Below, piece by piece: positions 1,986-58,654 of a stretch of DNA of 64,000 nucleotides. The translations under genes were made by a program, and so were the position numbers. Origin of the DNA: Gemmatimonadaceae bacterium (GTDB lineage Bacteria; Gemmatimonadota; Gemmatimonadetes; Gemmatimonadales; Gemmatimonadaceae); assembly GCA_020851035.1 (NCBI GenBank), contig JADZDM010000002.1:129995-193994 (forward strand), in the 5' to 3' direction. Each line of letters begins with the position of its first letter. The first letter of the stretch is position 1. The notes under the pieces are model-generated. The model was given only the letters and a program-made list of their open reading frames with translations, was not told the DNA's origin and did not search any database.

Positions 1986-1998
1986 GGTGCTGGTGGGA

Positions 1999-2147: not shown

Positions 2148-2208
2148 ACGGTCTCATTGAACGAACGCCCCGCGACGATCTGCCGGCCCTCCACCCCACC
2201 TCACTCGC

Positions 2209-4944
2209 TTGCGCATGCTCCTCCCGCTGCTCGCGCTGCTCCAGCAGCCTGCTCCCCCGCCGCCGCCCCGCACGGTCACCGACCCGGGCGTCGTGGCCGT
2301 GGGCCAGCGCGTCACCCCCGCCGGGGTGCAGACGGTGTTCGGCGGCCGCGTGGCCTCGGTCCGGTTCGGCGCGACGCCGGGTGAGGTATGGGCCGCCGTG
2401 CCGGGCAGTGCGTGGCGCATGGCGTGGCGGGACAACCGCGTCGTGGCGCGCGCGGAGTTCGCGGGTCGACCGGGCGTACACGGCATCGCGATGGATCCGG
2501 TCACGCGACGCGTGCTCGTGAGCTCGGTGAGCAAGCTCCCCGCCGCCGTCGCCGCCAGCCGCACGCCGGGCGGACCGCCGCTGGAGCGCGCGAAGTCGGT
2601 GGCGCAGCTCGTGGCCTACGACACCGACAGCGCCGCGACGATCACCATGCAATCCGGCCCGCTGGGCGACTTCATGGCTGGTGCACCGGCCATCGCGGCC
2701 ACGCGCGGTGCGGACGGGCATCGCGTGGCCGTGCTGCCACTTCCCGCCGACGACAAGCTGGTCGTGCTCGACGCCGAGAACGGCACCACGCTGCGCACGG
2801 TGGCCCTCGGCGTGCTGCCCATCGCCGCGGTGCTCTCACCCGACGGGGCCGTGGCCTGGGTGAGCGTCTTCGGCGGGCCGAAACCAACGGGGCGGCAGCG
2901 GCGCGCCACGCAGTGCTGCGATCCCGCCGCCGAGCCGGTGCGTGTCGACGCGCGCGGGATCGCGTTGCCCGGCACGGTGGATCGTATCGACGTGACGACC
3001 GGCACCGTCACCCACCGCATTTCGGTCGGGGCACACCCCACCGGGCTGGCCTGGGACGAGGGACGCCAGCGGCTCTACGTCGCCAACGGCAACAGCGATG
3101 CGATCAGCGTGATCGACACCCGCCGCAACACCCTCGTCGCCACCATCGCGATCGCCCCGTTCCGCGAGCGCCGCATCGGCCTCACACCGACGGCACTCGC
3201 GCTCGCGCCGGATGGCGGCACGCTGTACGTGACGCTCGGCGGCGCGAATGCCGTGGCCGTGTACGACGTGCGCGACGCGGGGGCCACGCTGCGCGGCCTG
3301 ATCCCCACCGGCTGGTACCCCAGCAGCATCGACGTCAGCGCCGATGGCACCACGCTCGCCGTCGGCACGCTCTTCGGCGTGGGTGCCGGCACCGGCCGCA
3401 CCGCCGGCCGCGACGGACGCTACGTCTTCGCGGAGCGCGGCTCGCTGAACGTGATCCCGGTGCCGACCGACGCCGCGCTCACCGCGTACACCACCAGCGT
3501 GGCGGAGAACAACCGATTCCACCTCGCCAGCGGGCCGGCGGCGCCGTCGATCACGCCGCGTGCCGGTGTGGTGGCGCGCGCGGTGCCGGAACGGCCCGGC
3601 GAGGCAAGCCTGATCCAGCACGTGGTGTACATCATCCGCGAGAACCGTACCTACGACCAGGTGCTCGGCGACATCGGCAAGGGGGCCAGCGACTCCTCGC
3701 TCACGATGTACGGCCGCGATGTCACGCCGAACACCCATGCCCTCAGCGAACAGTTCGTCCTGCTCGACCACTTCTTCGCCTCGGGCGGCAACTCCGCCGA
3801 CGGACACAACTGGCTGACGCAGTCGCTGGAGACGGCCTACCCGATGTGGCCCCTGTACTCCGGCCGCAGCTACCCGAGCGAAGGCAACGACCCCCTCACC
3901 TACTCGTCCGGCGGCTTCCTCTGGGAATCGGCGATGCGACTGGGACAGCGCGTGGTGAGCTTCGGCGAGTACGCGCCGGCGCCCAGCGATTCCGTGCCGG
4001 CGATGCGCGCGCGGCTGATGGCGATGTTCCGCGATTCGACCACGTACAGCGCCGCGCTGGCCCGGCGCACCCTCGCGCGCACCTACACCACCCGCAGCGA
4101 GATCCCGAGCCTGGACCGCATCCTCGTGCGCGAGTATCCCGGGTGGACGCAGGAGGTGCCCGACGTGGTGAAGGCGGACGTGGTGCTCGAGCACCTGAAG
4201 GAATGGGAGGCGGCGGGGCGGATGCCGAACCTCTCGCTGATCATCCTGCCGAACAACCACACGCAGGGCACGAGCCCCGGCTGGTGCACGCCCGCCGCCT
4301 GCGTCGCCGACAACGACCTGGCACTCGGCCGCCTGGTGGACGCGCTCAGCCACTCGTCGTTCTGGAAGTCGATGGCGATCCTCGTGGTCGAGGACGACGC
4401 GCAGAACGGCGTGGACCACATCGACGGGCACCGCACGGTGGCACTCGCGATCAGTCCATACGCGCGACGCGGCGTGATCGACAGCACGTTCTACAGCCAG
4501 CCCAGCATGGTGAAGACCATCGAGCTGATGCTCGGCCTGCCGGCGCTCACGATGTTCGACCTCGTGGCCACCGACATGCGCGCGAGCTTCATCGGTCCCG
4601 GCGAGGCGCCCGACTTCACGCCGTACCGGGTGCGGCAGCCGCGCCAGTCGCTGTACGACGTGAACCTGCGGGTGGGCGAGATCACCGGACCCGATGCCGC
4701 GGCCCGTCGTGCCGCTGCGGTGGCCAGCGCGCGGATGAACTTCCGCGAGCCTGACGCCGCGCCGACGGAGCGGCTGAACCGGATCCTGTGGGCCGAGTCG
4801 AAGGGGTGGCGCGTGCCCTATCCGGAGGTGAAGCGGTCGCTGTTCTTCCCGCTGGCGGTGGACATCGAGGATGAGGACCGCGAGGAGCGTGCGGAGCGGC
4901 GCGCCGTGCGACCGGTCCGGAAGCCGGCGCGTGACAGGCGGTGA
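2209..4944 (+). CDS. Bifunctional YncE-type beta-propeller / phosphoesterase (alkaline phosphatase superfamily) protein
   Basis: This is a 911-residue secreted protein. A short signal-like segment (MLLPLLALLQQ) is followed by a YncE/SMP-30-like propeller at about residues 25-440, with repeats such as LYVANGNSDAISVIDT. A phosphoesterase of the acid phosphatase/phospholipase C type (PF04185-like) follows from about residue 468. Metal-site signatures are visible: ENRTYDQ, GGNSADGHNW and EDDAQNGVDHIDGHR. Families with this two-domain order are known from Bacteroidetes and related bacteria, probably acting on phosphate esters outside the cell; the substrate cannot be read from sequence. The listed start is a TTG (2209); an ATG two codons later (2215) is equally likely. 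It converges with the SusD-like gene. Confidence 0.82.
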   Translation: MRMLLPLLALLQQPAPPPPPRTVTDPGVVAVGQRVTPAGVQTVFGGRVASVRFGATPGEVWAAVPGSAWRMAWRDNRVVARAEFAGRPGVHGIAMDPVTRRVLVSSVSKLPAAVAASRTPGGPPLERAKSVAQLVAYDTDSAATITMQSGPLGDFMAGAPAIAATRGADGHRVAVLPLPADDKLVVLDAENGTTLRTVALGVLPIAAVLSPDGAVAWVSVFGGPKPTGRQRRATQCCDPAAEPVRVDARGIALPGTVDRIDVTTGTVTHRISVGAHPTGLAWDEGRQRLYVANGNSDAISVIDTRRNTLVATIAIAPFRERRIGLTPTALALAPDGGTLYVTLGGANAVAVYDVRDAGATLRGLIPTGWYPSSIDVSADGTTLAVGTLFGVGAGTGRTAGRDGRYVFAERGSLNVIPVPTDAALTAYTTSVAENNRFHLASGPAAPSITPRAGVVARAVPERPGEASLIQHVVYIIRENRTYDQVLGDIGKGASDSSLTMYGRDVTPNTHALSEQFVLLDHFFASGGNSADGHNWLTQSLETAYPMWPLYSGRSYPSEGNDPLTYSSGGFLWESAMRLGQRVVSFGEYAPAPSDSVPAMRARLMAMFRDSTTYSAALARRTLARTYTTRSEIPSLDRILVREYPGWTQEVPDVVKADVVLEHLKEWEAAGRMPNLSLIILPNNHTQGTSPGWCTPAACVADNDLALGRLVDALSHSSFWKSMAILVVEDDAQNGVDHIDGHRTVALAISPYARRGVIDSTFYSQPSMVKTIELMLGLPALTMFDLVATDMRASFIGPGEAPDFTPYRVRQPRQSLYDVNLRVGEITGPDAAARRAAAVASARMNFREPDAAPTERLNRILWAESKGWRVPYPEVKRSLFFPLAVDIEDEDREERAERRAVRPVRKPARDRR

Positions 4945-4974
4945 CCGTGACACCCACGCACGGCCCCGATACAG

Positions 4975-5010
4975 GCGACGCCCCGAAGCCGTGAAGCTCC
5001 GGGGCGTCGC
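4975..5010. terminator. Bidirectional hairpin between convergent genes
   Basis: A perfect 11-bp inverted repeat (GCGACGCCCCG with CGGGGCGTCGC) with a 14-nt loop sits between the ends of two convergent genes at 4944 and 5040. There is no T-run, so the terminator role is inferred from position and stem strength. Confidence 0.6.
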
Positions 5011-5039
5011 ACTGCAACGGACGGGGACGTGCGATGCGG

Positions 5040-6434
5040 CTACGGATTGCGATCCGTGCACCCCTTGAAGTTCGGGTTGTTCCGCTCGTCGGTGACGACC
5101 GGCAGGTTCACGTCCACGCCGTAGCTCCCGCCCTTGTAGTGCACGCCTTGCGGGAAGGTGCTGGCGGCCGTGCGGCCATACTGGCGGATGAGGCGGCGCA
5201 GGTCACCGAGCCGCTGGCCGCGCGAGAAGGTCCAGAAGGCCTTCTCGCGGAAGAGCAGTGCGAGCCGTGCGTCATCGGTGCCCGGGTCGACCAGCGCCGG
5301 CAACGCCGCCGGCGAGACCTCGCCGAGCTTCGGCGGGGCAGCGCGCAGGGCATTCAGGATCGTCAGCCAGCTGCCGCTGCCGTTCTTGAGTTCCACTTCC
5401 GCCTCGACCAGCCGGGCATCGATACCGTTCGCCACGTCCACGGAGGTGAGCTGTCCGTAGATGGTGGTGGTGCGGGCATACGTCTGCCCATCCTGGCCGT
5501 TGATGGCGCCGGTGGTCGGGATGGTGGTGGGAATGCGCGGATCGCGCGACGACGCGAAGGGCAGCGCATTGGCGACGGGGATGTTGCGGGCATTCCCCTC
5601 CACGCTGTCACCCACGCTGTAGCGGCGTGAGCTCAGCCCCTGCCCCCAGAGTGTGTTGGTGCCGGTGGTGAGCGAGAACGTGTGCTGGTAGGCGAACGCC
5701 GTCGGGATGCCGGCGACGAAGGTACCGGCGCCGGTGAAGTCGGCGACGGCCAGCGCCACGCGCGCACGCGCCACGCGGGAGGCCCGGTTGATCAGCGTGC
5801 TCTGGGCGTCGGTGCCGTTCGCGAACGCGATCGCCGAGTCGAGGGACGCCGCGGCCAGCGCGAAGACCGCCGCGTTGGACAGGGGTGCGCTGTTCTCGGG
5901 CGGGATCCCGCCGGTGGCCCCGATCGGGATGCCGTTGCAGAAGTCGAGCGCGAGCTGCATTTCGGAGTAGCCCCGGGCGAGGTACATCTCGGCGATGCTG
6001 GCACGGGCCGTCGGGTTGAACTGCGTCAGCGCCTCGAGCGCGGCGTTGGCGCGGGTCCGCACGCGATAGAGCACGCGCAGCTGCGTGGTGACGGACCCGT
6101 TCTGCTCGCGGATGCGCCGCTGGTCGGTCTCGTCGTTCTCGATGAAGGTGGAGCTGGTGGCCCACTCGTCGGCCAGCAGGCCGCCGAAGAGCCAGGTGCT
6201 CTCGCCGGCGCCGGTGCTGGTGCGGAACGTGGCCACCGCACCGTTGGCCAGCGCGTTGGCGGCTTCCAGCGAGTTGACGTTGGCCGGGATGATGATGTCC
6301 GGGTCGGTGACGGAGAGCAGGCGGTCGTTGGCCGCCTGGCAAGCGGTGAGCGAGAGCAGGACAGCGGCCGCGGTGCCGAGGCGCACCCGCGAGGAACGCC
6401 GGCCCGTCATGTTCGTCGTGTTGATGAGAGACAT
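5040..6434 (-). CDS. SusD/RagB-family nutrient-binding outer-membrane lipoprotein
   Basis: This 464-residue lipoprotein has a lipobox (LLSLTAC near residue 32). The body is the helical, TPR-like SusD fold, with typical repeats of A/L-rich helices and a C-terminal segment (REKAFWTFSRGQRLGDLRR) common in this family. It caps the SusC-type transporter encoded just upstream and captures oligomeric substrate at the cell surface. The start is supported by an AGGAG that begins in the SusC stop codon and lies 9 nt before the ATG; the two genes are 12 nt apart and surely co-transcribed. The neighbouring S9 peptidase suggests a peptide rather than a glycan substrate. Confidence 0.88.
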   Translation of the reverse strand: MSLINTTNMTGRRSSRVRLGTAAAVLLSLTACQAANDRLLSVTDPDIIIPANVNSLEAANALANGAVATFRTSTGAGESTWLFGGLLADEWATSSTFIENDETDQRRIREQNGSVTTQLRVLYRVRTRANAALEALTQFNPTARASIAEMYLARGYSEMQLALDFCNGIPIGATGGIPPENSAPLSNAAVFALAAASLDSAIAFANGTDAQSTLINRASRVARARVALAVADFTGAGTFVAGIPTAFAYQHTFSLTTGTNTLWGQGLSSRRYSVGDSVEGNARNIPVANALPFASSRDPRIPTTIPTTGAINGQDGQTYARTTTIYGQLTSVDVANGIDARLVEAEVELKNGSGSWLTILNALRAAPPKLGEVSPAALPALVDPGTDDARLALLFREKAFWTFSRGQRLGDLRRLIRQYGRTAASTFPQGVHYKGGSYGVDVNLPVVTDERNNPNFKGCTDRNP

Positions 6435-6446
6435 GGGTCGTGGCTC

Positions 6447-9400
6447 CTAGTAGCCGAGATTGAAGCGGAACGTGAAGTAGCTCGGCGGGGCGATGGTCTG
6501 GAACTCGGACGGCGCATCGGTGCCGCTGGTGGTGTTGAAGCCCGACTCCGGGTCGGCGCCGCGGTACTTGGTCCAGAGGCGCAGGTTCCGGCCGGCGAGC
6601 ACCACCGACAGGCTGCGGGCCTTCAGCAGGCGTGAGGCCAGCGCAGGCGAGAACGTGTACTCGAGCGAGGCCTCGCGCAGCCGGACGAAGCCGCCCTGCT
6701 GCAGGAAGCCGTCCAGCGAGCGCACGACATGCTCGTTGGCCGCGATGTTGGTGGCCTGGTCGATGAGGTCCGCGTCCAAGTTGTTGCGGCCGCTGCAGTT
6801 CGGGCGGGTGCAGCGGATGCGATCGGTGTTGTTGTACCACAGGTTGCCGCGCCGGATGTCCCACATCGTGTTGAAGCGCAGCTTGTGGTTCAGGAACTCG
6901 AAGCCGTTGGTGACGGTGGTGTTGTAGCGCGGCGTGGCATAGCCGCGGAACACCGACGTGTCGGCCACGAACACCTCGTTCCGCGCGGTGTCGGCATAGT
7001 AGGTGAGCAGCCCGTCGCCATTCTTGTCCTGCCAGCCGAGGATCGGCTGCGCCCAGTAGCCGGCGATGGGATAGCCGGCCACGGTGCGGGTCACGGTGCC
7101 GATCTGTGGCGGCGTGTCACCCAGCGACTGCACCACGTTGGCGTTGCCTGACGCGGAGACGTTCACGTCCCACGTGAAATACGACCGGTTCATGATCTGC
7201 GCCGTGACGCCCAGTTCCCAGCCGCTGTTCTTGACCGAACCGAGGTTGCGGAGCTGGGTGGTGACCGAGCCGTACGACGGCGGCAGCACCGCGGCGATGA
7301 GGGCGTCCTTGGTGATCTTGTGGTAGTACGTGACGTCCAGGCTGAGGCGGCTGTTGAACATGTTCGCCTCGAACCCGGTCTCGTTCTCCGTCGAGCGTTC
7401 CGGCTTCAGGTCCGGGTTGCCGAGCGCCGACTGCACCAGGGTGGGCTGGTCGGCGTTCTGCAGGTTGGTGGTGCCAGCGCCGAAGAAGAGGAGGGCGTCG
7501 TTCGGGCCCGGCTGCACGCCGGACTGCCCGTACGCATACCGCAGGCGCAGCGACGTGAGCCACGAGGGCGACTTGAACCAGTCCTCCCCGGAGATCAGGT
7601 ACGATGCAGAGGCCTTGGGATAGACGATGCTCTGGAAGTTCGTGCCGAAGGCCGAGTTCTGGTCACTGCGGACGGCGGCAGTGAGGAAGAGCCGGTCATT
7701 GATGGAGAGGGCCTGCTCCACGAACACACCGAACGTCTTGGTGATCGTGGTGGCCTCGGAGACCGACGGCGACGTGCCGGACCCCACGTTCTGCGACGCC
7801 GGCGCGAGCTGCGTGGAGCCGGTGGACGCGAGGGCACTGCGGAATCCGATGTACTGCGCACCGGCGGTGGTCTTGTGCGACAGGCCGAACAGCCGGTACT
7901 GCGCCGTCGAGCCGACATCCACGGTGAGGTTGTTGGTGGACACCCGGCCGATGCCGCGCGAGCCGAGCCGCGTGGTGGCCGTCAGCGGCGGTCCCTCACC
8001 GCGATAGAGCAGGTTCTCGTCACTGAGCGAGGTGAAGTCGTTGCCGACCGTGGCGCGGTTGGCGAGCCAGGTGAACGGCCGCCAGTTCGCCTGCGCCGAC
8101 CAGATGAACCGGTTCACCGCCTGGGCCGTGTTCTCCTGCCAGGAGTAGCCGGGCGTCCAGGCGCGATAGCCGTTGAGTGGGGTGCCCAGGCCGCTGACGG
8201 TGCCGTTGGCGCGGGTGCCCGGCCCGCCGAACACCTGCGAGCCCAGCCCGGCGGTCGCGTTCGACTCGAGCGAGTACCGCTGCGCGATGTTGATGAAGTT
8301 GGTGGCCATCCCCAGCTCGAGCTTCGGCGAGATGGTCGCGTTCAGGTTTGCACGCAGCGAGCGCCGGTTCATCTGGTTGGGTCGGTCGGTCCACGAGCGG
8401 ATCGGAAGGCCCACCGAGTCGAAGCGCGCGCGCTCGAACTCCGGGAGTTCCAGCACGCCGACCTCGTGTTCGTCCTCGGCGGCCACGAAGTAGCGCACCG
8501 CGTCGCTGCCGCCCGAGACCTGCACGCCCACCTGGCGGCGGTTGCCGGTGGAGAGCGGCGTGAGGTCCTTCTCCTCGAAGATGTTCAGCGAGCTGGTGGA
8601 ATCGGCCAGGCACTCCCCGGTGCCGACGCGCTGCAGGTTGCAGAACGCCCGCGACGAGACGGTCTCGGTGGGACGTTTGCCCCAGAGGCTGTAGGCGGTT
8701 GGATAGGTGTTGCGATCCACGACCGTGCCGCCCTCGCTGTACACCGACCAGCGCGGGGCGCCGGCGCGGCCCTTCTTGGTCGTCACGAGGATCACGCCGT
8801 TGGCGGCGTCGGTGCCGTAGAGCGTGGCGGCCGACGGACCCTTCACGATCTCGATGCTCTCGATCTCGTCGGGGTTCAGGTCGCCGATCCGGCTGGCGTT
8901 GTTGCCGCCGGTGTTGCCGCCCACGCCGTTGCCGGTGGGGGCGTTGAAGTTCTGGTTGGTGCTGGTCATGCGGATGCCGTCGATGATCCAGATCGGCTCG
9001 TTCGACAGGCTCACCGAGTTGCTGCCGCGGATGCGGATGCGGGCACCGGTGCCGGTCTGCGTGCCGCTGGTCACCGTGACGCCGGGCGCGCGGGAGTTCA
9101 GCAGGTCGTTGAGGTTGGCCACCGGAGCCGACTCGACGAGGCTGGCCACGTCGATGTTCGCGGTCGCGTTGCCGATCTCCTCGCGCCGCTGCTCGCCGGT
9201 GGCGGTGGTGACGACGGCAGCGAGTGCGATGGCCGCCTGGTTCATCGCGACGTCCACCGTCGCGGTGGCGCCGGCGGTGACGGTCACGCGGCGCGTCTGC
9301 TCGGCGTACCCCACGCGCAGCACGCGGACGGTGTAGGTGGCCGGCGCCACGTTGCGGAAGGTGACGCGGCCGTCGGCCAGCGTCTGGTTGGCGATGTTCG

Positions 9401-43016: not shown

Positions 43017-43121
43017 TCCGGTGACAGTGCACTCATTTCCGACGCGTAGGGCGGCCGGGGCCCTTCGTATTCCGGTGACAGTGCACTCATTTCCGACGCG
43101 CGGGGCGGCCAGGGCCCTTCG
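43017..43121. repeat. Repeat cores plus a duplicated RAYT gene tail
   Basis: Two 51-nt copies spaced 54 nt apart (43017-43067 and 43071-43121) share CCGGTGACAGTGCACTC and then a stretch that, in the second copy, is the last 35 nt of the RAYT gene. The first copy therefore carries a pseudo-tail of that gene. Exact cores are at 43021 and 43075. Confidence 0.88.
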
Positions 43122-43749
43122 GTGCGAGCCCTCGGCCGGTCAGAGCCTCGAGCCGGCGCACGAACTCGGGCGACCCCACCGGCCGGCCGATCGTGGACGC
43201 CGCACGCAGGCCTGCCACCCGCTGCGCGTTCGGCTCATCGCCCAGATACGTCGCCACATTACCGATCATGCGCAGCAGACGCCGGGGATGCGTCAGCCCA
43301 TCATCTGCGCCGGTGAGGTACGCCCGCGCGCTCGACCAGCGCCATTCGGCGGCCGTCTGTGCCAGGCTGGCGCGGACTGGGTTGAGCAGCACGTAGCGCA
43401 ACGCCTCGTACAGGTGTGCGTCATCCATCGGCACTGACCCATATCGTCCCTGCCAGAAGTGCCCGGTCACACCGTGGCGCGCGTTGCTGCGCTGCGCGTA
43501 GCGCTGGTGGACGACCGCGAGGCTGCGTCGCAGCCCGTCGCCGGTGGCCGGCTCGAGAATCAGGTGCACGTGGTTGGGCATCAGGCAGTACGCGAGGCAG
43601 GTGACCTTCTGTGCCGCGCACGCGCGGCGCAGAAGGTGGAGATACTCGAGACAATCCTCAGCGGAGTGGAACGTGCGTTGGCGCCCATTGCCACGCTGGG
43701 TGACGTGATGGGCGAGGCCGGGGATGACGACGCGCGCGATACGGGCCAT
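43087..43749 (-). CDS. REP-associated tyrosine transposase (RAYT, Y1_Tnp type)
   Basis: This 220-residue protein starts at ATG 43749 (MARIARVVIPGLAHHVTQRG) with all RAYT/IS200-like signatures: the HVTQRGNGRQ start, the HUH pair in MPNHVHLILEP, FWQGRYGS and YVLLNPVRA. In the family a catalytic Tyr attacks DNA at the palindromic REP sequence. Both gene ends are flanked by copies of the GTGACAGTGCAC repeat, in opposite orientations, which is the normal RAYT arrangement. A longer frame to 43908 is rejected because it runs into repeat DNA. It may be single-copy and domesticated. The basic C-terminal tail (GPGRPARRK) is intact. Confidence 0.9.
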   Translation of the reverse strand: MARIARVVIPGLAHHVTQRGNGRQRTFHSAEDCLEYLHLLRRACAAQKVTCLAYCLMPNHVHLILEPATGDGLRRSLAVVHQRYAQRSNARHGVTGHFWQGRYGSVPMDDAHLYEALRYVLLNPVRASLAQTAAEWRWSSARAYLTGADDGLTHPRRLLRMIGNVATYLGDEPNAQRVAGLRAASTIGRPVGSPEFVRRLEALTGRGLAPKGPGRPARRK

Positions 43750-43783
43750 GGCGGGTTTCGGCTGGACGCTGCGTGAGCAGCCG

Positions 43784-44080
43784 CACGGCGGCTGCGGCGG
43801 GCATGCCCACCATGCGGGTGTCCCGCTCCGCGGACCAACTCGAAAGCGTGCACTGTCACCGGTTTTCGTGCATCGGGCAGGCGCGTCGCCGGCAGCGTGC
43901 CTTGTCACCCGCTTGGCGTGATGGCCACATGCCGGAAGGGGCGGGCTGTCACCGGACTTCGCGGAAACGGTGCACTGTCACCGGATTTCATCGGATTTCG
44001 CGGAAACGGTGCACTGTCATCGGATTTCCTTGTCACCGGATTTCCTGTCACCTGACGTCCGCAATGGTGCACTGTCACCG
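43784..44080. repeat. RAYT upstream block with inverse repeat units
   Basis: Three exact inverse cores (43848, 43970, 44067) and a one-base variant (44010) lie here in the form GTGCACTGTCAC. The unit at 43964-43989 folds as CGGTG-CACTGT-CACCG, with outer GAAA/TTTC arms interrupted by GA. The first 205 nt recur at 59159-59363. Confidence 0.9.
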
Positions 44081-44954: not shown

Positions 44955-46214
44955 GTGCTCGAAATCGTCTCGATTCTGCTGGCCGTCACCGCCGTCCTCG
45001 CGTTCGTCAACACGCGCTTCCTGCGGCAGCCGCCCGCAATCGGACTGCTGATCACCGCGCTCGGCAGCGCCCTCGTCGTCAAGGCGCTGGGTGTGCTCGG
45101 CCTCCTGAACCTGGATCCGATTCTGGCGCTGCTGCGCGAGCTCGACTTCCGCGCAGCGCTCCTCGACGGCATGCTCGGCCTGCTGCTCTTCGCTGGCGCA
45201 TTGCACGTGGACCCAGCCCAGCTGCGGGCACAGGTCAGGCCCATCGCTGCCCTTGCAACACTGGGCACACTGATCAGCGCGGTGCTCATTGCGACAGCGG
45301 TGGTATGGATCGGCAAGGCAATCGGGACACCCGTCCCAGTCATTTGGGCTCTCGCGTTCGGCGTCCTGATCGCGCCGACGGACCCCATCGCGGTGGCGGC
45401 GCTGTTACGCAGCGCAGGCGTTCCCAACGCGCTCCAGAAGACGATTACCGGCGAGTCGCTCTTCAACGACGGCATCGGCGTGGTCCTGTTCCTCGCCGTC
45501 CTGACGACGATCGAGCAGGGCGTCGTCCCTGGTGCGGGCGAGATCGCTCGCCTGCTCGGCGTCGAGATCGTCGGTGGCCTGGCGTTCGGGCTGGGGCTCG
45601 GGTGGGTTGCCGTGCGTATGCTGCGCCAGATCGACGAATACCAGACGGAAATCCTGCTCACGCTCGCCTTCGCATTCGCAGGCTTCACCCTCGCGCGGTA
45701 TCTCCACGTCTCTGGTGTCCTCGGTATGGTGGTACTGGGTCTCGTGATCGGGCGGCAGGGTGGCGACGACGTCATCTCGACAAGGACCAAGCAGCGACTT
45801 GACGACTTCTGGGAGTTGATCGACGAATTTCTCAACGCCGGGCTGTTCGTCCTCATCGGCGTCGAGATCCTCGTCATCGATGTACGCCCCGCTGCGCTGC
45901 TCCTCGGGCTCCTCTTGATCCCGGTGATCGTGGCCGTGCGCTGGATCTCGGTCGCCGGCGTCGTCTGGCCGATGCGGCACGCGCTCCAGTGGCCCGCGGG
46001 AAGCATCGGCCTGGTCACGTGGGCGGGAGTCCGCGGCGGTATCTCGATTGCCCTGGCCCTCGCGCTTCCGGCGAATCCGTTGCGGACGACGCTACTCGCG
46101 GCGACCTACGTGGTCGTCTGCTTCTCCATCGTCGTTCAGGGACTGTCGGTCGGCTGGGTCGCACGCCGACTCCTTGGGGCGACAGCACAAGGCACCGACA
46201 CGGCGCACGACTGA
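44955..46214 (+). CDS. CPA1-family Na+/H+ antiporter (NhaP/NHE type)
   Basis: This 419-residue protein has about 12 membrane helices. It contains the CPA1 motifs APTDPIAVAALL and ITGESLFNDGIGVVLFL, which carry the acidic residues needed for ion exchange, and a C-terminal GVRGGISIALAL segment typical of NhaP. It exchanges Na+ or K+ for H+ across the inner membrane. The start is a GTG at 44955 with no strong ribosome site; another start could be nearby. It begins a stretch rich in osmotic and ionic stress genes. Confidence 0.88.
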   Translation: MLEIVSILLAVTAVLAFVNTRFLRQPPAIGLLITALGSALVVKALGVLGLLNLDPILALLRELDFRAALLDGMLGLLLFAGALHVDPAQLRAQVRPIAALATLGTLISAVLIATAVVWIGKAIGTPVPVIWALAFGVLIAPTDPIAVAALLRSAGVPNALQKTITGESLFNDGIGVVLFLAVLTTIEQGVVPGAGEIARLLGVEIVGGLAFGLGLGWVAVRMLRQIDEYQTEILLTLAFAFAGFTLARYLHVSGVLGMVVLGLVIGRQGGDDVISTRTKQRLDDFWELIDEFLNAGLFVLIGVEILVIDVRPAALLLGLLLIPVIVAVRWISVAGVVWPMRHALQWPAGSIGLVTWAGVRGGISIALALALPANPLRTTLLAATYVVVCFSIVVQGLSVGWVARRLLGATAQGTDTAHD

Positions 46215-46368: not shown

Positions 46369-48156
46369 TCAGAAGGCCCGCTCCCACGGGATCGAAAGCC
46401 GCAGCGCTGAGCTGATCAACCCGACCATGCTGTACGTCTGCACGAAATTTCCCCACTGCTCGAGCGACACCGGATCGATGTGCTCCGCCAGCAGGCCATG
46501 CGGGTTGCGGCACGCCAGTACGTGTTCGAACAGCTCACGCGCCTCCAGTTCGCGGCCGATGGCTGCCAGCGCGTTGATGTACCAGAAGGTGCACGCCAGA
46601 AAGGCGTTCTCCGGCTTGCCGAAGTCGTCTTCGCCGACATACCGGTAGATGAAGTGCCCGCGCAGCAGCTCGCGCTCGATGGCATGCACCGTGGCGACGA
46701 AGCGGACGTCGTCCGCCGACACAAAGCCGACGTCGTGCATGCGCAGCAGCGACGCGTCGAGTGTGCTGCCGTCCATCGTGGCCACGAACGTGTGCAGTTC
46801 TGCGTTCCAGCAGCGGCGACAGATCTCGATGTGCATGCGATCGGCTGTCTCGCGCCAGAACGTGTACCGATCGCGGAGGCCAAGCTGCGCTGCGATCCGC
46901 GCCAGCCTGTCGCAGCCCGCCCAGCACATGACGCTCGAGAACGTGTGAACATGCGTGCTTCCACGCAGCTCCCAGATTCCAGCGTCGGGCTGGTCATAGC
47001 AGGCGGCAGCACGGTGCCCGATCTGCTCGAGGCGCTCGAAGAGCGCGACGTCGCCGCGCTGCTCGAGCCGCCGGTCGAAGAAGATGTGCGTGGCGGCCAG
47101 GATGGCGGCGCCGTACACGTCATGCTGCACCTGCCGATACGCGTCGTTGCCAACCCGCACGGGCCCCATGCCGCGATACCCCGGCAGTGACTCCACGGTG
47201 CGTTCCTCGATGTCCGGCCGCCCACTGATGGTGTACATCGGCTGCAGCTCCCCGTGCTCCGCACTGGCGATCACATTCATGATGTACGCAAGGAAGCGCT
47301 CCATCGTGCGCGTCGCGCCAAGCCGGTTCAGTGCGTCGACGACGAAGTACGCGTCGCGGATCCAGCAGTAGCGATAGTCCCAGTTACGTTCGCTTCCGGA
47401 GGCCTCAGGGATCGACGTCGTCATGGCGGCAATCACCGCGCCCGTGTCCTCGTGCGCGTTGAGCTTGAGCGCGATGGCGGAGCGAATCACGACATCCTGC
47501 CACTCGAACGGAATCGCCAGCGCGCGCACCCAGTCGCGCCAGTGTGCCACCGTCTCCTCGAGGAAGCGCCGGCCGACGATCCCGGCCGACTCCGTCACCG
47601 TCTCATCGGCGCCAAGGATCATCGTCACCGTGCCGTCGAGAAAGAACGGCAGTTCCTCGACGATCGGGGTGAGCGGCGCATCGGTCGTCAGGCGCAGCAC
47701 GACGTCACCGCCGATGTAGCGGACGTGATTGCTGCCCATCGTACGCTCGGCCGGATAGCGCCCGTACTGGCACATCGGTCGGAGCCGAATCCGGATGCGG
47801 GGGTGACCCGCCACGGCGGTCACGCGACGCACCAGCGACATGGGACAGAAGAAGCGCCCGTACTGCTCGAATCTCGGTGAGAAATCGACGATCTCGACCA
47901 CGCCGCCAGAGGCGTCGTGCAGCCGGGTCACGAGGACGGGGGTGTTCTCGAGCACGGACTGCTCGGTGCGCACACACTCGAGCACCTCGATGCCGAAATG
48001 GCCGCCCGCCTCCGGCGCGTCCGTCCCGTTCAGCAACGAGCAGAACGCGGGATCTCCGTCGAAGCGCGGGAAGCACGCCCACGTGATATCCGCGTCGGGC
48101 GTGATGAGCGCGCTGATGGTGCCGTTCCCGATCAGGGCCAGGTTCAGTGAATTCAT
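46369..48156 (-). CDS. Glycoside hydrolase family 15 enzyme (glucoamylase/trehalase type)
   Basis: This 595-residue protein has the N-terminal beta-sandwich and the GH15 (alpha/alpha)6 barrel. Family signatures are NWDYRYCWIRDAYFVVDAL, IWELRG with a Glu at the catalytic-acid position, MCWAGCDRL, and LLAEHIDPVS with the second Glu before EQWGNFVQTYSMVGL. GH15 includes glucoamylases and, in actinobacteria, trehalases. Its ATG overlaps the otsB stop (ATGA), so in this operon trehalase is the more likely activity, giving turnover of the trehalose made by OtsA/OtsB. No signal peptide is seen, so it is intracellular. Confidence 0.82.
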   Translation of the reverse strand: MNSLNLALIGNGTISALITPDADITWACFPRFDGDPAFCSLLNGTDAPEAGGHFGIEVLECVRTEQSVLENTPVLVTRLHDASGGVVEIVDFSPRFEQYGRFFCPMSLVRRVTAVAGHPRIRIRLRPMCQYGRYPAERTMGSNHVRYIGGDVVLRLTTDAPLTPIVEELPFFLDGTVTMILGADETVTESAGIVGRRFLEETVAHWRDWVRALAIPFEWQDVVIRSAIALKLNAHEDTGAVIAAMTTSIPEASGSERNWDYRYCWIRDAYFVVDALNRLGATRTMERFLAYIMNVIASAEHGELQPMYTISGRPDIEERTVESLPGYRGMGPVRVGNDAYRQVQHDVYGAAILAATHIFFDRRLEQRGDVALFERLEQIGHRAAACYDQPDAGIWELRGSTHVHTFSSVMCWAGCDRLARIAAQLGLRDRYTFWRETADRMHIEICRRCWNAELHTFVATMDGSTLDASLLRMHDVGFVSADDVRFVATVHAIERELLRGHFIYRYVGEDDFGKPENAFLACTFWYINALAAIGRELEARELFEHVLACRNPHGLLAEHIDPVSLEQWGNFVQTYSMVGLISSALRLSIPWERAF

Positions 48157-48944
48157 GACGGGACCGCTCCACCGGCACTCGCGGCGACGGCCTGGCTGAG
48201 CCAGCGCCGCACGGCACGGACGTCCCGCATGCGCCAACCTGCCGTCGTGCGTCCCGGGCCCACCTTCACCGAGATTCCATCCAGTTCGTTGATCACCGCA
48301 AATCCGTACTCGTCCGTCATGTCGTCCCCGATGAAGACGGGCCGTCGCCCTCGGAATGGCGCTTCCGTCAGGAAGGTGCGGATGGCCGTGCCCTTGTCGC
48401 GTCCCGCCAACTTCAGTTCGACGACGCGCTTGCCGCGCTGCACGCAGAACTCCGCGCCAGCCACGTCACCGACCTGCCGCATCACGCGATGTGCATAGCT
48501 TGCAAGCGCCAGCGCCTGACGGTAGTGCAGCGCGAGCGATAGCCCCTTGTCCTCGAGCAGGAGGCCGGGGTGACGCTGGACGACGTCGCGAAGCCGGGTA
48601 CGGGCGAGATCGAGCGCCGGGAGCGGCGGCGAGCACCGCGTGACATGGCCGTTTGGCGCTCGCCGCTCGAGGCCGTGCTGCCCGGCAACGGGCAGGTGCA
48701 GCGCCGGAAAGAGCTGGTCGACCTCGGCCACCGGGCGGCCCGTGATGATCGCGACCGCACCGCCGGTGAGCGTCGTGAGCGCGGTGATCGTCGCCCGGAG
48801 TTCCGCGTCCACCTGTACGTCGCCCGGCCGAGGGGCGATGTCGAGCAACGTGCCATCGAGATCCACGAAGTACGCCCACTCCGGAGTCGGTGACGGGACG
48901 CCAGCCGTGCGCCGTCGTCGCGACGCAGGCATTGTCGCGGTCAC
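48153..48944 (-). CDS. otsB: Trehalose-6-phosphate phosphatase
   Basis: This 263-residue HAD-superfamily phosphatase has the DxDGTLL motif (FVDLDGTLLDIAPRP), a central ITGRP motif, the Lys of EDKGLSLALHYR and a VFIGDDMTDEYGF motif, all typical of OtsB. It removes the phosphate from trehalose-6-phosphate. Its start overlaps the OtsA stop by 4 nt, and its stop overlaps the GH15 start. A Met/Arg-rich N-terminus of about 20 residues is probably a short unstructured tail. Confidence 0.9.
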   Translation of the reverse strand: MTATMPASRRRRTAGVPSPTPEWAYFVDLDGTLLDIAPRPGDVQVDAELRATITALTTLTGGAVAIITGRPVAEVDQLFPALHLPVAGQHGLERRAPNGHVTRCSPPLPALDLARTRLRDVVQRHPGLLLEDKGLSLALHYRQALALASYAHRVMRQVGDVAGAEFCVQRGKRVVELKLAGRDKGTAIRTFLTEAPFRGRRPVFIGDDMTDEYGFAVINELDGISVKVGPGRTTAGWRMRDVRAVRRWLSQAVAASAGGAVPS

Positions 48945-51226
48945 GCGCTCGCCTCCCGACGGTCAGGGGTCGCGACGAGACGGGGGCGCAGGCCGGCCGG
49001 GAATTCGAAGCGGCGGATGAGGCGTGTCCGGCGCCGCACGCTGGCGGCATCCAGCATCATGCGCCCGGCCCAGCGGTACACGTTGAACTCTCCCACGAGG
49101 CTGCGCATCAGGCGCATGCGCGCGCGCTGCTCCTGCGGCGGCATGGTGACCGCCTGGAACAAGGCCTCTGCACACTCTTCCGCGTCGTACGGGTTGACGA
49201 CGATGGCCTCCGGCAGTTCTCTGGCCGCACCGGTGAACTGACTCAGCACGAGCACGCCCCGCTCGTCGTCGCGCGAGGCCACGAACTCCTTCGCCACGAG
49301 GTTCATCCCGTCATGCAGGCTGCTGACGAAGCAGACGTCGGCGCCCCGGTAATATTCGTAGACCTCGCGAGGTTCGTGGTGCTCCGCGTGCAGGATGATC
49401 GGGGCATGCGCGGCGGCAGAGAACTGCGTGTTGATCCGCATGGCCAGCGCACGCACCCGCGCTTCGTACGCCTGGTAGTGCTCGATGCTCGAACGCGTCG
49501 GGGCGGCGATCTGGATGAAGGAGAACCGGCCCACCCACTCCGGGTGGATCTCGAGAAAGCGCTGCACCGCGCGGAAGCGTTCCTCGATGCCCTTGGTGTA
49601 ATCGAGGCGATCCACACCGACGCCGATGACATGCCCTTCCGGCAGCTGATGATGGTGCCGGACGTCCGCCCGGCACTGCTCCACTTGCTTGGCCAGCATC
49701 GGCGCCGCCGGCGGCCAGTCGACCGAGATCGGGTATCGCTTCACCGCGGTCGGCTCACCGTGATAGGACACGGTGAATGATTCACGATCCACCCGCGCCT
49801 CGAGCAGCCGATCCACGGTGTCGACGAAGTTGTTGCAGTGGAACTGTGTGTGAAAGCCGAGGATGCTGCTGCCCAGCAGTCCATCGAGCAGCTCCTCACG
49901 CCACGGGCAGATGCTGAACGCCTCAGGGTTCGGCCACGGGATGTGCCAGAACGTGATGATCGTGGCGTTCGGCAGGAGCTCGCGGACGTATCGCGGCAGG
50001 AGCGCAAAGTGGTAGTCCTGCACGAGCACGATGGGGTCGCTGGACGTCGCCTCGCGCACCACGGCCTCGGCGAACTTCCGATTCACCGCGACGTACTGCG
50101 CCCAGTCGGTGGCCCGGAACGTCGGTCGCACGTGTGCATTGTGGCAGAGAGGCCAGAGCCCCTCGTTCGAGAAGCCGTAGTAGTACCCGGACTCCTCCTG
50201 CGCCGACAGCCAGACCCTGCGGATCTGGTACGCAGGCGTGTCGACGGGCACGCCGACCCGATCATGGCGGTCGACGACTTCCCGGTCGGCGGTGCCGGAG
50301 CCGTGTGCGATCCACGTGCCGGAACAGGCACGCATGATCGGCTCCAGCGCCGTCACCAGCCCGCTCGCCGGCTGCTTCACGACAATCTCGTCGCCCTGAA
50401 ACATGTGCATGTACGGCTCGCGGTTCGAGACCACGATCACCTCCTGCCCACGCAGGTCGCCATCGAGAATCGCCTTCAATGCGGCCGCATCCCACGGCGC
50501 CTGATGCTCTTCCCGGGCGCGATGCTCCGACTGGATATCCTGAATCAGCGCGCGGAGATCGGCCGCAATGGGCCGCAGCTCCGGCCGGTCATGCTTGTCA
50601 GTGGGGCGCAGGATACCTTCGCCCCGCATGAGCGCCCGGAGGCCCTGTTCCCATCCACGCCAACTGAGCTGCGCCACCGCCACCGTGATCATCGACACGG
50701 TCAGGCCCAGGGCCGCGAAGACGTAAAACAGGTACTTCCGCGTCTCCTCGCTTCGGCGTCCGACGAAGCTCATGTCATGCACCAGGACCAGCTCACCAGA
50801 TGGAGCACTGTCGCTCGCCAGCGAATGCACCGACACGAGCAGCGGACCGCGCGCACTGCTCAGAACGTGCGTTGCCGGATCCTCGCCGGTGAAGCGGGCG
50901 AGGCTGTCACACGCCACCTCCGCCGGCAATGACGGGGTCGCAATCGGCTTCGAACCGGGCGCCGCGCAGTACCCCATCGCGAACAGGCGCTCATCCTGGG
51001 TGATCTTTGCGAACAGCTGGCGTACCCTCGCCTTGTTGTCAACCTGCACCAGGTCCTGCACGGCATCTTCGACCGTGGTCGCCACCAGCTTGGCGCGAAT
51101 GTCGAGGTCGCGCGTGAACCACCGCACCGTCAGGGTGTCGACGAGCGGGACGACGGCATAGGCGACTCCGGCGAGCACGAGCAGCAGCGGAATGATGAAT
51201 CGGAGCGAGAGTCGCATGGGCCTCAT
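48941..51226 (-). CDS. otsA: Trehalose-6-phosphate synthase fused to a membrane sensor module
   Basis: This 761-residue protein has an N-terminal extension of about 260 residues before a GT20 domain. The extension has one membrane helix at about 10-32, a periplasmic segment (about 35-165), a second helix (about 172-188) and a HAMP-like, charged linker to about 250. The GT20 part has [55 protein letters not shown] and [13 protein letters not shown]. coli OtsA has about 474 residues and no membrane part. It makes trehalose-6-phosphate from UDP-glucose and Glc-6-P, perhaps gated by an osmotic or chemical cue. OtsB next door supports the trehalose assignment. Confidence 0.85.
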
Positions 51227-51283: not shown

Positions 51284-52444
51284 TCACGACGCGTCGGCGT
51301 ACTCCCGGGCACGCAGCTCGCGAGGTGCGGCACGCTGCAGCAGCAACGTCTGGGTTGGATAGGCGAACTCGATCCCGGCGTCCTCGAACTGCGCGTGTAA
51401 GGACAGGTTCACCTGCTGCTGGATGTCCATATACTGGTTGTAGTCAGCAGAGTTCACGAAGTACACCACCTCGTAGTCGACCGCGAAGTCGGCGAACGAG
51501 GCCAGATGCGCGCGGTCAAACCGCACCGGTGACTGGCGCTCCACCGCATCGCGCAGCATACCGGGAATCTGCTCGAGCAGATCCCTTGGCGTCTGATATG
51601 TCACGCCGACGTGAAATACCACGCGCCGCTCCTGCATCCGGCCGTAGTTGCGAACCCGACTGTCGAGCAGGTCGCCGTTCGAGAAGATGAGCTGCTCCCC
51701 GGACAATGCCCGCAGACGCGTCGTCTTCAGCCCGACGCGCTCCACCGTGCCCATCAGCTCGCCGACCGCGATGAAGTCACCAATCACGAACGGCTTGTCG
51801 AGCACGATGGCGAGCGACGCGAAGAGGTCACCGAGGATCTTCTGCGTCGCGAGTGCAATCGCGACGCCGCCCACGCCGAGACTCGCCACGAACGCAGTGA
51901 TGTTGACGCCGAGGTTGTCGAGTGCCAGCAAGAGTACCACTGTCCAGATCACCACCTGCACGGCGACCTGCAGCGCGGCGAACATGGTGGATGTGCTCCG
52001 GTCCTCCGCCGGCCGCCGACTGCGGTGAACGGTGATCACACCGCGGGCGGCCGCCGTAGCCCACAATCCCACCTGCGCCAGGAGGGCGAGCGCGGCCACC
52101 CCGCTCACCCACCGCTCGCCAGTTGACGAGAGCGGCAGCGAGCGCAATCCGACGAAGAGACCGCCGACGACGACGAGCAGCGTGCGCGTGCTACGGACCA
52201 CGCTCACCACCACGTCGTCCCAGGGATTCGTGGTGCGCTTCGACAGCACGGCGAGCCGGTTTGCGGCGACGGAACGCATGAGCAGTCCACACGCCACCAC
52301 CGCCGCCGACAGTGCTGCCGCGCGCAGCAATACCACGGTAGACACGTCTGCAAGAACGACCGATTCGGGGAGCACGAGTCTCCTCCCGCCGACCTGCAAC
52401 CGCAGGCCAGCCCATCGAATCACAAGTGGGAGCCGGCTCGGCAT
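51284..52444 (-). CDS. MscS-family mechanosensitive channel
   Basis: This 386-residue protein has three to five N-terminal helices and the MscS pore/beta-domain signature (LGVGGVAIALATQKILGDLF) followed by GDFIAVGELMGTVERVGLKTTRLR. The C-terminus has the mixed alpha/beta vestibule. The channel releases solutes upon hypo-osmotic shock, which complements the trehalose synthesis genes just downstream. ATG 52444 is chosen over an upstream TTG at 52480. It lies 57 nt upstream of otsA, on the same strand. Confidence 0.88.
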   Translation of the reverse strand: MPSRLPLVIRWAGLRLQVGGRRLVLPESVVLADVSTVVLLRAAALSAAVVACGLLMRSVAANRLAVLSKRTTNPWDDVVVSVVRSTRTLLVVVGGLFVGLRSLPLSSTGERWVSGVAALALLAQVGLWATAAARGVITVHRSRRPAEDRSTSTMFAALQVAVQVVIWTVVLLLALDNLGVNITAFVASLGVGGVAIALATQKILGDLFASLAIVLDKPFVIGDFIAVGELMGTVERVGLKTTRLRALSGEQLIFSNGDLLDSRVRNYGRMQERRVVFHVGVTYQTPRDLLEQIPGMLRDAVERQSPVRFDRAHLASFADFAVDYEVVYFVNSADYNQYMDIQQQVNLSLHAQFEDAGIEFAYPTQTLLLQRAAPRELRAREYADAS

Positions 52445-52637
52445 GCCGTCCGGACCATCGAGCGGTGCCGCTGCGTGCAATCAGCACTGCGGCAGGAACA
52501 ACCGACGCGGGCCCTGATCGAACACTCAGGATTCCACGACGCGAGAGCTGTCCTTTACATAGACACAAATATAGTATTCGATGACGCAAGCGGCGGCAAC
52601 CCACGCGCCTCACTTCCCGATCACGCCGGAGGCTCAC

Positions 52638-53730: not shown

Positions 53731-55119
53731 CTACCGCCGCTCGACGTTCGTCAGCTCGACGGAGTCCACCTTCAGGCGCGTCGTCAGAAAGGCTCGCAAT
53801 CGGGTCGAGGCGGTGCGATCCGGCGAACGGCGCCACCTTGCCACTACGGCGACACGAGCACCGAGCGCCGGTGTGGCGGCGGTATCGACGTCGGACACGA
53901 TGTAACCGACCGCCAGCGACAGCAGCCCCGGATTGAGTGCGCGTACCTCCGAATACAGGCTCCGGGACGGCAGTTCCGCCGCCCGCAGGCGGATGACCTC
54001 CGCCTGCAGCGCCGCCGCACGTTGCGCATCGGCCGACGGCGCCTTCGCATCGCGCATCGTCATCTCCTTCAGCGCCTCCTGCCGCAGCACATCGGCGAGT
54101 TCCTCCAGCGACGGTTGATGCCCGAGCGGCTGTCGCAGCACCAGCCGCGTCTTCGCGAGTCCATACGCGGAAAGGCGCTGACGTACGCTGTCAACTTGCG
54201 CGACGGGGACCGGTTCACCGATCAACGTCGCCTCGATGGTGGAGGAATCGCGAGCATATCGGAACGCCGTGTTCAGGACGCTTCGGTCGGCGAACACCAG
54301 GTTCTCCGCAACGAAGCGGCGCGCGGCCCCCTTGAACCGTGTTTCCTGCACGACGTTCCAGCCGGTGTAGATGCTCGGCAGGACGAGGACGAGCGTCAGG
54401 ATCACGATGACAGTGCGCACGCGCCCACGCGTGGTCGACTCCGGCACGGCGACCCGCGGGAAGTGCATCAGTCGCACGAAGCCGAGCGTCGCGAGGCAGA
54501 TGAAGAGCGCATTGATCAGGAACAGATGCATCGCGCCGAGGAAGAACCAAAGATCGCCGTGGGCGAGACCGAAGCCTGCCGTGCAGAGCGGCGGCATGAG
54601 CGCGGTGGCAATCGCGACGCCGGGAAGCACCTGACTCTTGTTCGCCTTGCGCGTGACCGCGACGATGCCAGCCGCGCCCCCGAACAGGGCGATCAGCACG
54701 TCGAACAGCGTCGGTCGTGTCCGCGCGAGGAGTTCGGACTGCGCCTCCGCCAGCGGCGAGATGAAGAAGAAGAACGTCGACGCCGCGAGTGCGATGGCCG
54801 TCGCGAACACCAAGCTGCGCACGCTGCGGCGCAGGAGCAGGACGTCACTGGTCCCGAGCGCAACCCCCATGCCGACGATCGGTCCCATGAGCGGCGAGAT
54901 CAGCATGGCACCGATGATGACCGCCGTGGAATTCACGTTCAGTCCGACTGACGCGATCAGGATCGCGAACACGAGCGCCCAGGCTCCCGTGCTCCGCAAT
55001 TCCACGTCTGAGCGAACGTGCTCGATGCTGGCGACGTAGTCGGTCTCCTCCCGGAGCGACAACGCCGATCGGGCGCGATTCCAGAGCTGTTCAGGGAGCA
55101 CGAGACGATCCTTCGGCAA
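53731..55119 (-). CDS. DUF389 (TIGR00341-like) membrane protein
   Basis: This 462-residue protein has five to six membrane helices with the family's conserved signatures NSTAVIIGAMLISPLMGPIVG and ATALMPPLCTAGFGLAHGDL, then a soluble C-terminal domain with beta/alpha repeats. The function of DUF389 is unknown; homologues occur next to transport and stress genes. It converges with the MarR gene, with a 26-nt gap. Confidence 0.87.
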   Translation of the reverse strand: MPKDRLVLPEQLWNRARSALSLREETDYVASIEHVRSDVELRSTGAWALVFAILIASVGLNVNSTAVIIGAMLISPLMGPIVGMGVALGTSDVLLLRRSVRSLVFATAIALAASTFFFFISPLAEAQSELLARTRPTLFDVLIALFGGAAGIVAVTRKANKSQVLPGVAIATALMPPLCTAGFGLAHGDLWFFLGAMHLFLINALFICLATLGFVRLMHFPRVAVPESTTRGRVRTVIVILTLVLVLPSIYTGWNVVQETRFKGAARRFVAENLVFADRSVLNTAFRYARDSSTIEATLIGEPVPVAQVDSVRQRLSAYGLAKTRLVLRQPLGHQPSLEELADVLRQEALKEMTMRDAKAPSADAQRAAALQAEVIRLRAAELPSRSLYSEVRALNPGLLSLAVGYIVSDVDTAATPALGARVAVVARWRRSPDRTASTRLRAFLTTRLKVDSVELTNVERR

Positions 55120-57394: not shown

Positions 57395-58654
57395 TCATGT
57401 CACTGGAGGATCAAGCGGCGCGTAGCCATGTGACGCGACCGGCGTTCCGACCTCGCTCAGGACGTCCAGTTCCGGAACCCCACGACCGAGCAGGAATCCG
57501 GGCAGGATGGTATTCACGACGGTGTACACGATCAGCGCGCCGAAGACGAAGTCGGGGACCGCGAACTGATCCCGGAGGATCTCCGCGATGACCAGCGAGA
57601 AGACGAGCGTCGGTGCGAGGGCGATTGCGATCGGCAGGCCGCTCTGCCACGACTCACCCATCGCATGGCGCCGATGCACGACGACCATCGCGATGCGGGC
57701 CGGGACGCACACCACCACGGCACCGAGACCGAACCAGATCGCCTTCGCGGTGAAGTCCTCGGCATGCAGGTGCAGCCCGGCATTGAAGAAGTAGAACGGG
57801 GCGAAGACGGACGCGAACGCCTCCACCGCGTGCAGCGTCCGCTCGGACGACATGGCTGGCAGGCGCGTGCGAAACGCCTGAGCCGCGATGCCGACCATGA
57901 ATGCGCCCACGAGGTAGTACACGCCGAGAGCACGCGTGATGTAGGCGCTGACCACCGCCAGCATCAGCAGGAAGGCGAACTCCGACTTCGGTGCGTACGG
58001 TGCGATCCGTGCCGCAAAGAACCGGAACAGCAGTGGCAGCACGAGGACAAGGGCGAGCAGCGCAGCAGTCGCGACGCCGAGTCGCTCTCGCGACGTGGAC
58101 TGCAGGGCAATGAACAGCACACCAAGCGCGAGCAGCTCGGTGGCGATCGCCTTCGACTTGATCCAGAATCGCTCCCGCGGCTGCAGACCGAGGGAGTCGA
58201 GCGAATCAAGGATGAATCCCGTTGACGGCGTGAAGAGGGCCAGCGCGATGAGCGCGCCGATTCGGTAGGAGAACTGCATGCTCATGGCGATCACCACACC
58301 CGACCCGAGGATCACGAGCAAACGCACCGCAACATGCTGCGCGATGACCCTCGCTCCCTCCCGCAGGTCAGCGCCGTTCACCTCCAGCCCGGCGGTGAGG
58401 AACATCGCGACGATGCCGAATGTGGCAAGCAGACTCAGCGTCGGGTCCTGCGTCAGGATCCCGCTGGCAGACGCCGCTGCACCCAGCAGAAAGCTCGTGA
58501 TTGCGCTGGGCAGGCGGAAGCGCTGCAGCGCTCGAGGCACGACGAACAGCGCGAAGAGCAGCAGGATGTACGTGAGATCTTTCGGCACGCGATGACGTAA
58601 GAGGGCGACGTTCGTACGATGGATGAACTGAGCGATCTGGCTGCCGGGGATCAC
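57395..58654 (-). CDS. CPA2-family cation/proton antiporter (KefB/GerN type)
   Basis: This 419-residue membrane protein starts at GTG 58654 and has about 12 helices. It shows the CPA2 patterns LPSAITSFLLGAAASASGI and FLTAGLEVNGADLREGA, then FYFFNAGLHL near residue 300. No RCK/TrkA domain is present, so it is the short form. It exchanges K+ or Na+ for H+. Together with the CPA1 gene at 45 kb, the region encodes two unrelated antiporters. Confidence 0.87.
   Translation of the reverse strand: MIPGSQIAQFIHRTNVALLRHRVPKDLTYILLLFALFVVPRALQRFRLPSAITSFLLGAAASASGILTQDPTLSLLATFGIVAMFLTAGLEVNGADLREGARVIAQHVAVRLLVILGSGVVIAMSMQFSYRIGALIALALFTPSTGFILDSLDSLGLQPRERFWIKSKAIATELLALGVLFIALQSTSRERLGVATAALLALVLVLPLLFRFFAARIAPYAPKSEFAFLLMLAVVSAYITRALGVYYLVGAFMVGIAAQAFRTRLPAMSSERTLHAVEAFASVFAPFYFFNAGLHLHAEDFTAKAIWFGLGAVVVCVPARIAMVVVHRRHAMGESWQSGLPIAIALAPTLVFSLVIAEILRDQFAVPDFVFGALIVYTVVNTILPGFLLGRGVPELDVLSEVGTPVASHGYAPLDPPVT

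Follow-up and report, generated by a model that had tools for sequence, protein, structure and literature searches.

Why would an enzyme that makes trehalose, a stress protectant, be built like a membrane receptor? The question is raised by an OtsA-like gene in a 64,000-nt stretch from a Gemmatimonadaceae bacterium (contig JADZDM010000002.1, positions 129,995 to 193,994), which we analyzed at its full length and call the window. The open reading frame (ORF) listing of the window confirms a complete frame of 761 aa at 48941-51226 on the minus strand. Its product has, in order, a transmembrane (TM) helix, a presumably periplasmic domain of ~130 residues, a second TM helix, a linker of ~70 residues and a complete GT20 domain. 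OtsA, the trehalose-6-phosphate synthase of family GT20, is usually regarded as a soluble enzyme, regulated by expression and metabolites. An initial annotation, made from the sequence, had proposed that here the synthase carries its own membrane sensor. We find the fusion of a membrane module to GT20 conserved across about ten bacterial phyla. We favor, at a probability of roughly 0.55, the reading that the protein is a trehalose-6-phosphate synthase with a two-helix receptor module, in which a Cache-like sensor modulates activity.

A membrane module fused to GT20

Residue numbers are counted from the ATG at 51226. The real start is likely the ATG at 51217, because most relatives begin at MRLSLRF and align from residue 4. 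Hydropathy maxima at residues 11-29 and 166-184, together with a PF00982 match over 262-725, bear out the two-helix module and ~130-residue domain that had been described ahead of a complete GT20.

Relatives were found by GT20-domain motifs only, across GTDB species genomes. The 80 best named relatives were ranked by full-length match, and absence of the module further out was judged from other genome sets. The initial annotation had suggested a domain search for other GT20 proteins with N-terminal sensors; among the best named relatives, 80/80 carry the module in one frame with GT20, with two hydrophobic helices at matching positions, and nearly all align with the window protein from the N-terminus onward. 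Their records are labeled Beta- and other Proteobacteria, Gemmatimonadetes, Acidobacteria, Nitrospira, Geobacter and Deltaproteobacteria, Bdellovibrio/Oligoflexia, Planctomycetota, Verrucomicrobia and Cloacimonadota. With many metagenome-assembled genomes (MAGs) among them, individual labels may be wrong. The closest named relatives come from records labeled Gemmatimonadota.

Conservation is uneven along the protein. Mean identity of the 80 relatives to the window protein is 62% in TM1, 39% in the periplasmic domain, 56% in TM2, 44% in the linker and 67% in GT20. In TM1, F10, P13 and P27 are invariant or nearly so. In or near the variable periplasmic part, W36, D40, R44, D78-E79-R80, C87, P101, C106, G127, D151 and R158 are near-invariant, and such residues amid an otherwise variable domain are the pattern expected of a sensor. 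Exactly two cysteines occur in the periplasmic region of 80/81 sequences, and the remaining sequence has none. This paired presence or absence is the pattern that an extracytoplasmic disulfide would give, and a Cys87-Cys106 disulfide is probable. For the closest pair, the ratio of nonsynonymous to synonymous substitution rates (dN/dS) in the module is about 0.07, with dS high. By this measure the module is under purifying selection, which argues that it has a function; selection does not tell which function it serves.

We modeled residues 1-270 with AlphaFold2, using 65 sequences (mean predicted local distance difference test score, pLDDT, 85.5; >85 for most of 11-180). Helices were predicted at 3-61, 65-79 and 153-200, and strands at 83-87, 121-124, 127-136 and 144-151. 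In the resulting fold, a long first helix is followed by a PAS-like sheet that lies between the two TM helices and leads straight into TM2. Matches from Foldseek and VIA-align 2 were almost all extracytoplasmic Cache/PAS receptor domains (WalK, LuxQ, DctB, CitA, PctA and TlpB). VIA-align Z scores were 11.6 for WalK in an integrative model (9a5d) and 8.8 for its crystal structure, 9.6 for LuxQ, 9.3 for DctB and 8.7 for CitA. A long N-terminal helix distinguishes Cache from PAS domains (PMC4822843). The periplasmic domain is thus predicted to have a fold of the extracytoplasmic sensor (Cache/PAS) type. We call it Cache-like because sequence profiles place it in no named Cache family. CHASE4, the best Cache-clan Pfam model, matched 7/65 relatives below cut-off (best E 0.0028). 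Pfam matches to PAS_10, DUF7437, Adeno_E3B and CHASE4 fell below cut-offs or were scattered along helices, and we set them aside. sCache_2 had no match in the genomes of 60 relatives, hence gave no comparison set, and comparing the periplasmic domain with solved structures by sequence yielded nothing useful.

The linker had been called HAMP-like. PF00672 (HAMP) matched 0/65 relatives, and a scan of the bacterium's own genome found 16 other HAMP domains, with neither OtsA locus among them. Aligned by hhalign to these 16 domains, the linker gave a plausible register over 46 columns and a weak match (probability 21%). In the model, the TM2 helix gives way to a loop of low confidence and then to a helix at 218-240. 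Given the failed PF00672 matches and the low probability of the profile alignment, a true HAMP linker is unsupported, and HAMP-like is the most that the linker can be called. Of the proposed coupling of membrane sensor to synthase, what stands is a predicted Cache/PAS-fold module, under selection, fused to an apparently competent GT20; a true HAMP domain lacks support.

PF00982 matches with E=1e-121 and 407.5 bits, against a cut-off of 32.5, and covers model positions 2-469 of 473. The ligand contacts of Mycobacterium thermoresistibile OtsA (Arg18, Gly39, Tyr90, Asp144, His168, His199, Arg286, Lys291, Arg324, Asp385 and Glu393; PMC6879718) are retained in our alignment as R269, G289, Y349, D404, H428, H459, R540, K545, R578, D639 and E647; a further mycobacterial contact, Gln146, is replaced by His406. 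The OtsA equivalog model TIGR02400 gave 417.7 bits, below its cut-off of 564.85, and we therefore class the protein as an OtsA-like GT20 outside the equivalog. The domain is apparently catalytically competent, judged by its residues. It would convert nucleoside diphosphate (NDP)-glucose and glucose-6-phosphate to trehalose-6-phosphate, a choice of donor and product that the adjacent otsB supports. TreS and TreY models had no match over cut-offs in this genome (95.7% complete).

Distribution and origin of the membrane type

The same genome encodes a second membrane-type OtsA (locus L002, G000:C2:412594-416988; 1429-3762, minus strand, 777 aa), which shares 49% identity with the window protein across residues 5-736, or 47% in alignment A1. 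The periplasmic domains of the two are strongly divergent, so the two enzymes may respond to different signals. The paralogue has its own otsB (610-1428, minus). No further GT20 over cut-off, hence no soluble one, was found in the genome; both of its GT20s are of the membrane type. The membrane type is also the sole GT20 in 9/12 other genomes tested.

Wider scans separate proteins with and without the module. In 298 genomes of the phylum, every GT20 match at 45-100% identity on a sufficiently long contig has the module, and matches at <=44% start at about residue 213-264, without it. The order of Sulfurisoma, sampled with 300 genomes, gave 20 matches at >=60% identity, all with frames of at least 745 aa, and two further ones, at 47-51%, that are soluble or without the module. 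In a maximum-likelihood tree of GT20 domains, 30 membrane-type proteins share one branch (support 100/100, length 1.06). The membrane type thus forms a single clade, and the module therefore arose early and persisted across phyla. When the deep membrane-type sequence L135 and two soluble sequences were included, in a tree by a quick method with support from the SH-like approximate likelihood ratio test (SH-aLRT) only, the soluble pair fell inside the membrane clade. This suggests one early gain of the module and its later loss in the soluble pair. The soluble Burkholderiales relatives (L170, 4189-5673 minus; L169, GT20 within the frame 3086-6844) have seemingly lost the membrane module and retain a short helix preceding GT20 and the otsB neighbor.

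Another variant, in Aminobacter (L172, plasmid pANY103b, 3962-5782), carries a single helix at its N-terminus and lacks the periplasmic domain. Its gene adjoins GT4 and amylo-alpha-1,6-glucosidase genes. Public annotation of the Aminobacter relatives reads simply trehalose-6-phosphate synthase.

A trehalose cluster around the gene

OtsB, GH15 and MscS had been named as neighbors, and profile searches found all three (Table 1). otsB lies downstream and overlaps the stop of the OtsA-like gene by 4 bases. It is adjacent in 59/76 testable relatives. The GH15 gene overlaps otsB in turn, and its product is probably a trehalase, to judge from its profile matches. A GH15 homologue lies near 38/57 testable named loci, and in other phyla the gene is upstream or divergent. 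In the window, genes for trehalose synthesis and probable breakdown thus share one cluster.

Table 1. Positions in the window of the OtsA-like gene, its parts and the adjoining genes
Feature	Position	Strand	Description
OtsA-like GT20 gene, whole	48941..51226	minus	membrane-anchored, 761 aa; 758 aa from ATG at 51217
TM helix 1	51140..51196	minus	residues 11-29, hydropathy maximum; predicted helix extends to residue 61
Periplasmic Cache-like domain (predicted)	50747..51136	minus	residues 31-160; AlphaFold2 pLDDT mostly >90
Cys87	50966..50968	minus	conserved periplasmic cysteine, partner Cys106 (probable)
Cys106	50909..50911	minus	conserved periplasmic cysteine, partner Cys87 (probable)
TM helix 2	50675..50731	minus	residues 166-184, hydropathy maximum; predicted helix 153-200
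Cytoplasmic linker	50453..50674	minus	residues 185-258; TM2 helix end, loop, helices 218-240 and 247-256
GT20 trehalose-6-phosphate synthase domain	49052..50443	minus	residues 262-725, PF00982
otsB, trehalose-6-phosphate phosphatase	48153..48944	minus	PF02358 E=9.6e-35; TIGR00685 154 bits vs cut-off 68
GH15 enzyme	46369..48237	minus	PF00723 and PF19291 TREH_N; best NCBIfam match TreH1, below cut-off
MscS-type mechanosensitive channel gene	51284..52480	minus	upstream of OtsA-like gene, same strand

The neighbors had also been said to fit the sensor idea. OtsB and GH15 are conserved neighbors, but MscS, being confined to the genus, is not supported as evidence: MscS and DUF389 genes stand upstream in the same order in a congener (G001, L137), none of the other phylum loci examined has MscS, and an MscS homologue lies near only 5/57 testable named loci. 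We rejected MscS as a conserved partner of otsA outside the genus. The DUF389 membrane protein gene (53731-55119, minus) is upstream of MscS; DUF389 homologues also occur near membrane-type otsA in L137 and at two Geobacter/Geobacteraceae loci (L051, L080). The trehalose cluster lies between two genes of the Na+/H+ exchanger family (44955-46214, plus; 57395-58654, minus), and a homologue of the second is also nearby in L137. An IS200-like (Y1) transposase family protein is encoded near the cluster (43087-43908, minus).

Sensing, anchoring and known systems

How might such a protein work? As a receptor, it would make the cell's trehalose-6-phosphate while anchored in the inner membrane, with both termini cytoplasmic. 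Its single Cache-like domain, probably stabilized by its disulfide, would respond to an extracytoplasmic cue. The protein would most likely act as a dimer, and a shift of TM2 would travel along its helical, HAMP-like linker to GT20, arriving at the strand with which the N-terminal Rossmann half of this GT-B enzyme begins. GT-B catalysis by OtsA requires a large closing movement of the N-terminal half (PMC6879718), and it is this half that the linker joins. The signal could alter the ease with which the enzyme closes over its substrates, and with it the rate. OtsB would then yield trehalose, which the neighboring GH15 enzyme would degrade. We infer every step from ligand to rate, along with the periplasmic orientation, the disulfide and the dimer, whereas the architecture, its conservation, the catalytic residues, the gene cluster and the predicted fold come from the sequence analysis itself. 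Osmotic control is one possibility for the cue, but nothing found points to osmolarity as the signal, and MscS is weak evidence for osmotic sensing because its linkage is essentially genus-confined.

Several results weigh against this receptor reading. Pfam Cache, PAS and HAMP models stay below cut-offs in the window protein and in 65 relatives, and hhalign of the domain against six CHASE4-matching sequences is not significant (E 0.19). Model confidence is low in the linker, through which the signal would pass. Finally, the clade has soluble members and the single-helix Aminobacter form, and the sensor is therefore dispensable in some lineages.

Because these members do without a sensor, anchoring alone stays a serious rival to sensing, and the main one. 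The module would then hold the synthase at the inner membrane, close to a channel, to OtsB or to the synthesis of envelope glycans, with a Cache-like domain that has lost any sensing role or serves to dimerize the protein. That the Aminobacter proteins keep one helix without the periplasmic domain suggests that membrane position may itself matter, and no part of the protein is less conserved than the periplasmic domain. Yet this domain is kept in all 80 best named relatives, together with its near-invariant residues and coupled cysteine pair, and conservation of the linker and TM2 exceeds the needs of an anchor. On balance we consider anchoring alone the less likely of the two, and prefer a receptor module that modulates the synthase.

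Two other readings are improbable. GT20 could serve as a signaling scaffold, informing partners or signaling by the level of trehalose-6-phosphate, beyond supplying osmolyte; the conserved otsB and trehalase neighbors suit ordinary trehalose turnover instead. We give just as little credence to a GT20 domain that is inactive or has another donor or product, for instance through a different sugar-phosphate acceptor. Its score short of the OtsA equivalog, the long branch of the clade (1.06) and the clade's own NREPY motif would fit such a domain, but the conserved donor and acceptor contacts of mycobacterial OtsA are kept, apart from the Gln146 to His change, and a trehalose-phosphatase gene adjoins in most testable relatives.

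The initial annotation had named two findings that would count against it: a frame join and separate genes in relatives. An artefact in which sequencing or assembly error joined neighboring frames has nothing in its favor and is ruled out: the paralogue L002 shares this architecture, which recurs in the genus, elsewhere in the phylum and in 80 named genomes or MAGs. Neither the phylum search nor the named relatives showed the module as a separate intact gene. Two partial phylum matches were considered as signs of a separate-gene origin and rejected, one being a contig end (G290, L131) and the other an in-frame deletion fusion (G048, L132). In the latter (G048:C33:37000-47000, 4681-5613), the reading frame runs from the first ~218 module residues directly into the C-terminal end of GH15, as though GT20, otsB and the greater part of GH15 had been deleted, unless the MAG is misassembled.

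What is at stake is a whole OtsA clade, often the sole GT20 of its genome, that is built like a membrane receptor. Should the sensor gate the enzyme, it would link the cell surface directly to osmolyte synthesis, without kinase, second messenger or transcription, and Cache domains would have an output outside the signaling proteins so far listed. This bears on how bacteria rapidly start trehalose synthesis after drying or salt shock. The general claim, a receptor-enzyme in which an extracytoplasmic sensor of Cache type directly switches an enzyme of primary biosynthesis and so gives about ten phyla a transcription-free, post-translational route from cue to compatible solute, we put forward tentatively, at somewhat less than even odds.

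Full-length GT20, substrate contacts and an OtsB partner are common to the window protein and the OtsAs of E. coli (1GZ5) and M. thermoresistibile (5JIJ). Structurally solved bacterial OtsAs, however, have ~450-500 aa and no module, and match the window protein only from residue ~256; the latter has 260 extra N-terminal residues, comprising the two helices and the periplasmic domain, and belongs to a separate clade. The Cache (PDC/extracytoplasmic PAS) sensors WalK, CitA, DctB and LuxQ have a long helix continuous with TM1, a PAS-like sheet and a last strand leading to TM2, as predicted here. Unlike in these receptors, the output is a biosynthetic glycosyltransferase, and no Pfam Cache model exceeds its cut-off. 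A 2016 survey found Cache domains joined to known signal-transduction outputs (PMC4822843).

Two gene clusters invite comparison. Ramlibacter tataouinensis has an otsA-otsB-GH15 trehalase cluster (Rta_36480-36500) with the same three gene functions as in the window, and in the passage describing that cluster TM helices or a sensor domain go unmentioned (PMC3164672). Other Ramlibacter species carry a membrane-type OtsA (L091, L107). In the msc-gt-tpsp operon of Thermoproteus tenax, a mechanosensitive channel gene likewise adjoins a trehalose-6-phosphate synthase gene, and the synthase is activated by complex formation with a separate glycosyltransferase (PMC3634074). The archaeal protein, however, is a synthase/phosphatase fusion without a receptor module, and the MscS linkage seen here does not extend beyond the genus; the operon is a parallel, not a homologous system. 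In open-access papers we found no description of a membrane-bound, sensor-bearing or HAMP-bearing trehalose-6-phosphate synthase. The membrane-type OtsA is a widespread and apparently uncharacterized variant of a known enzyme.
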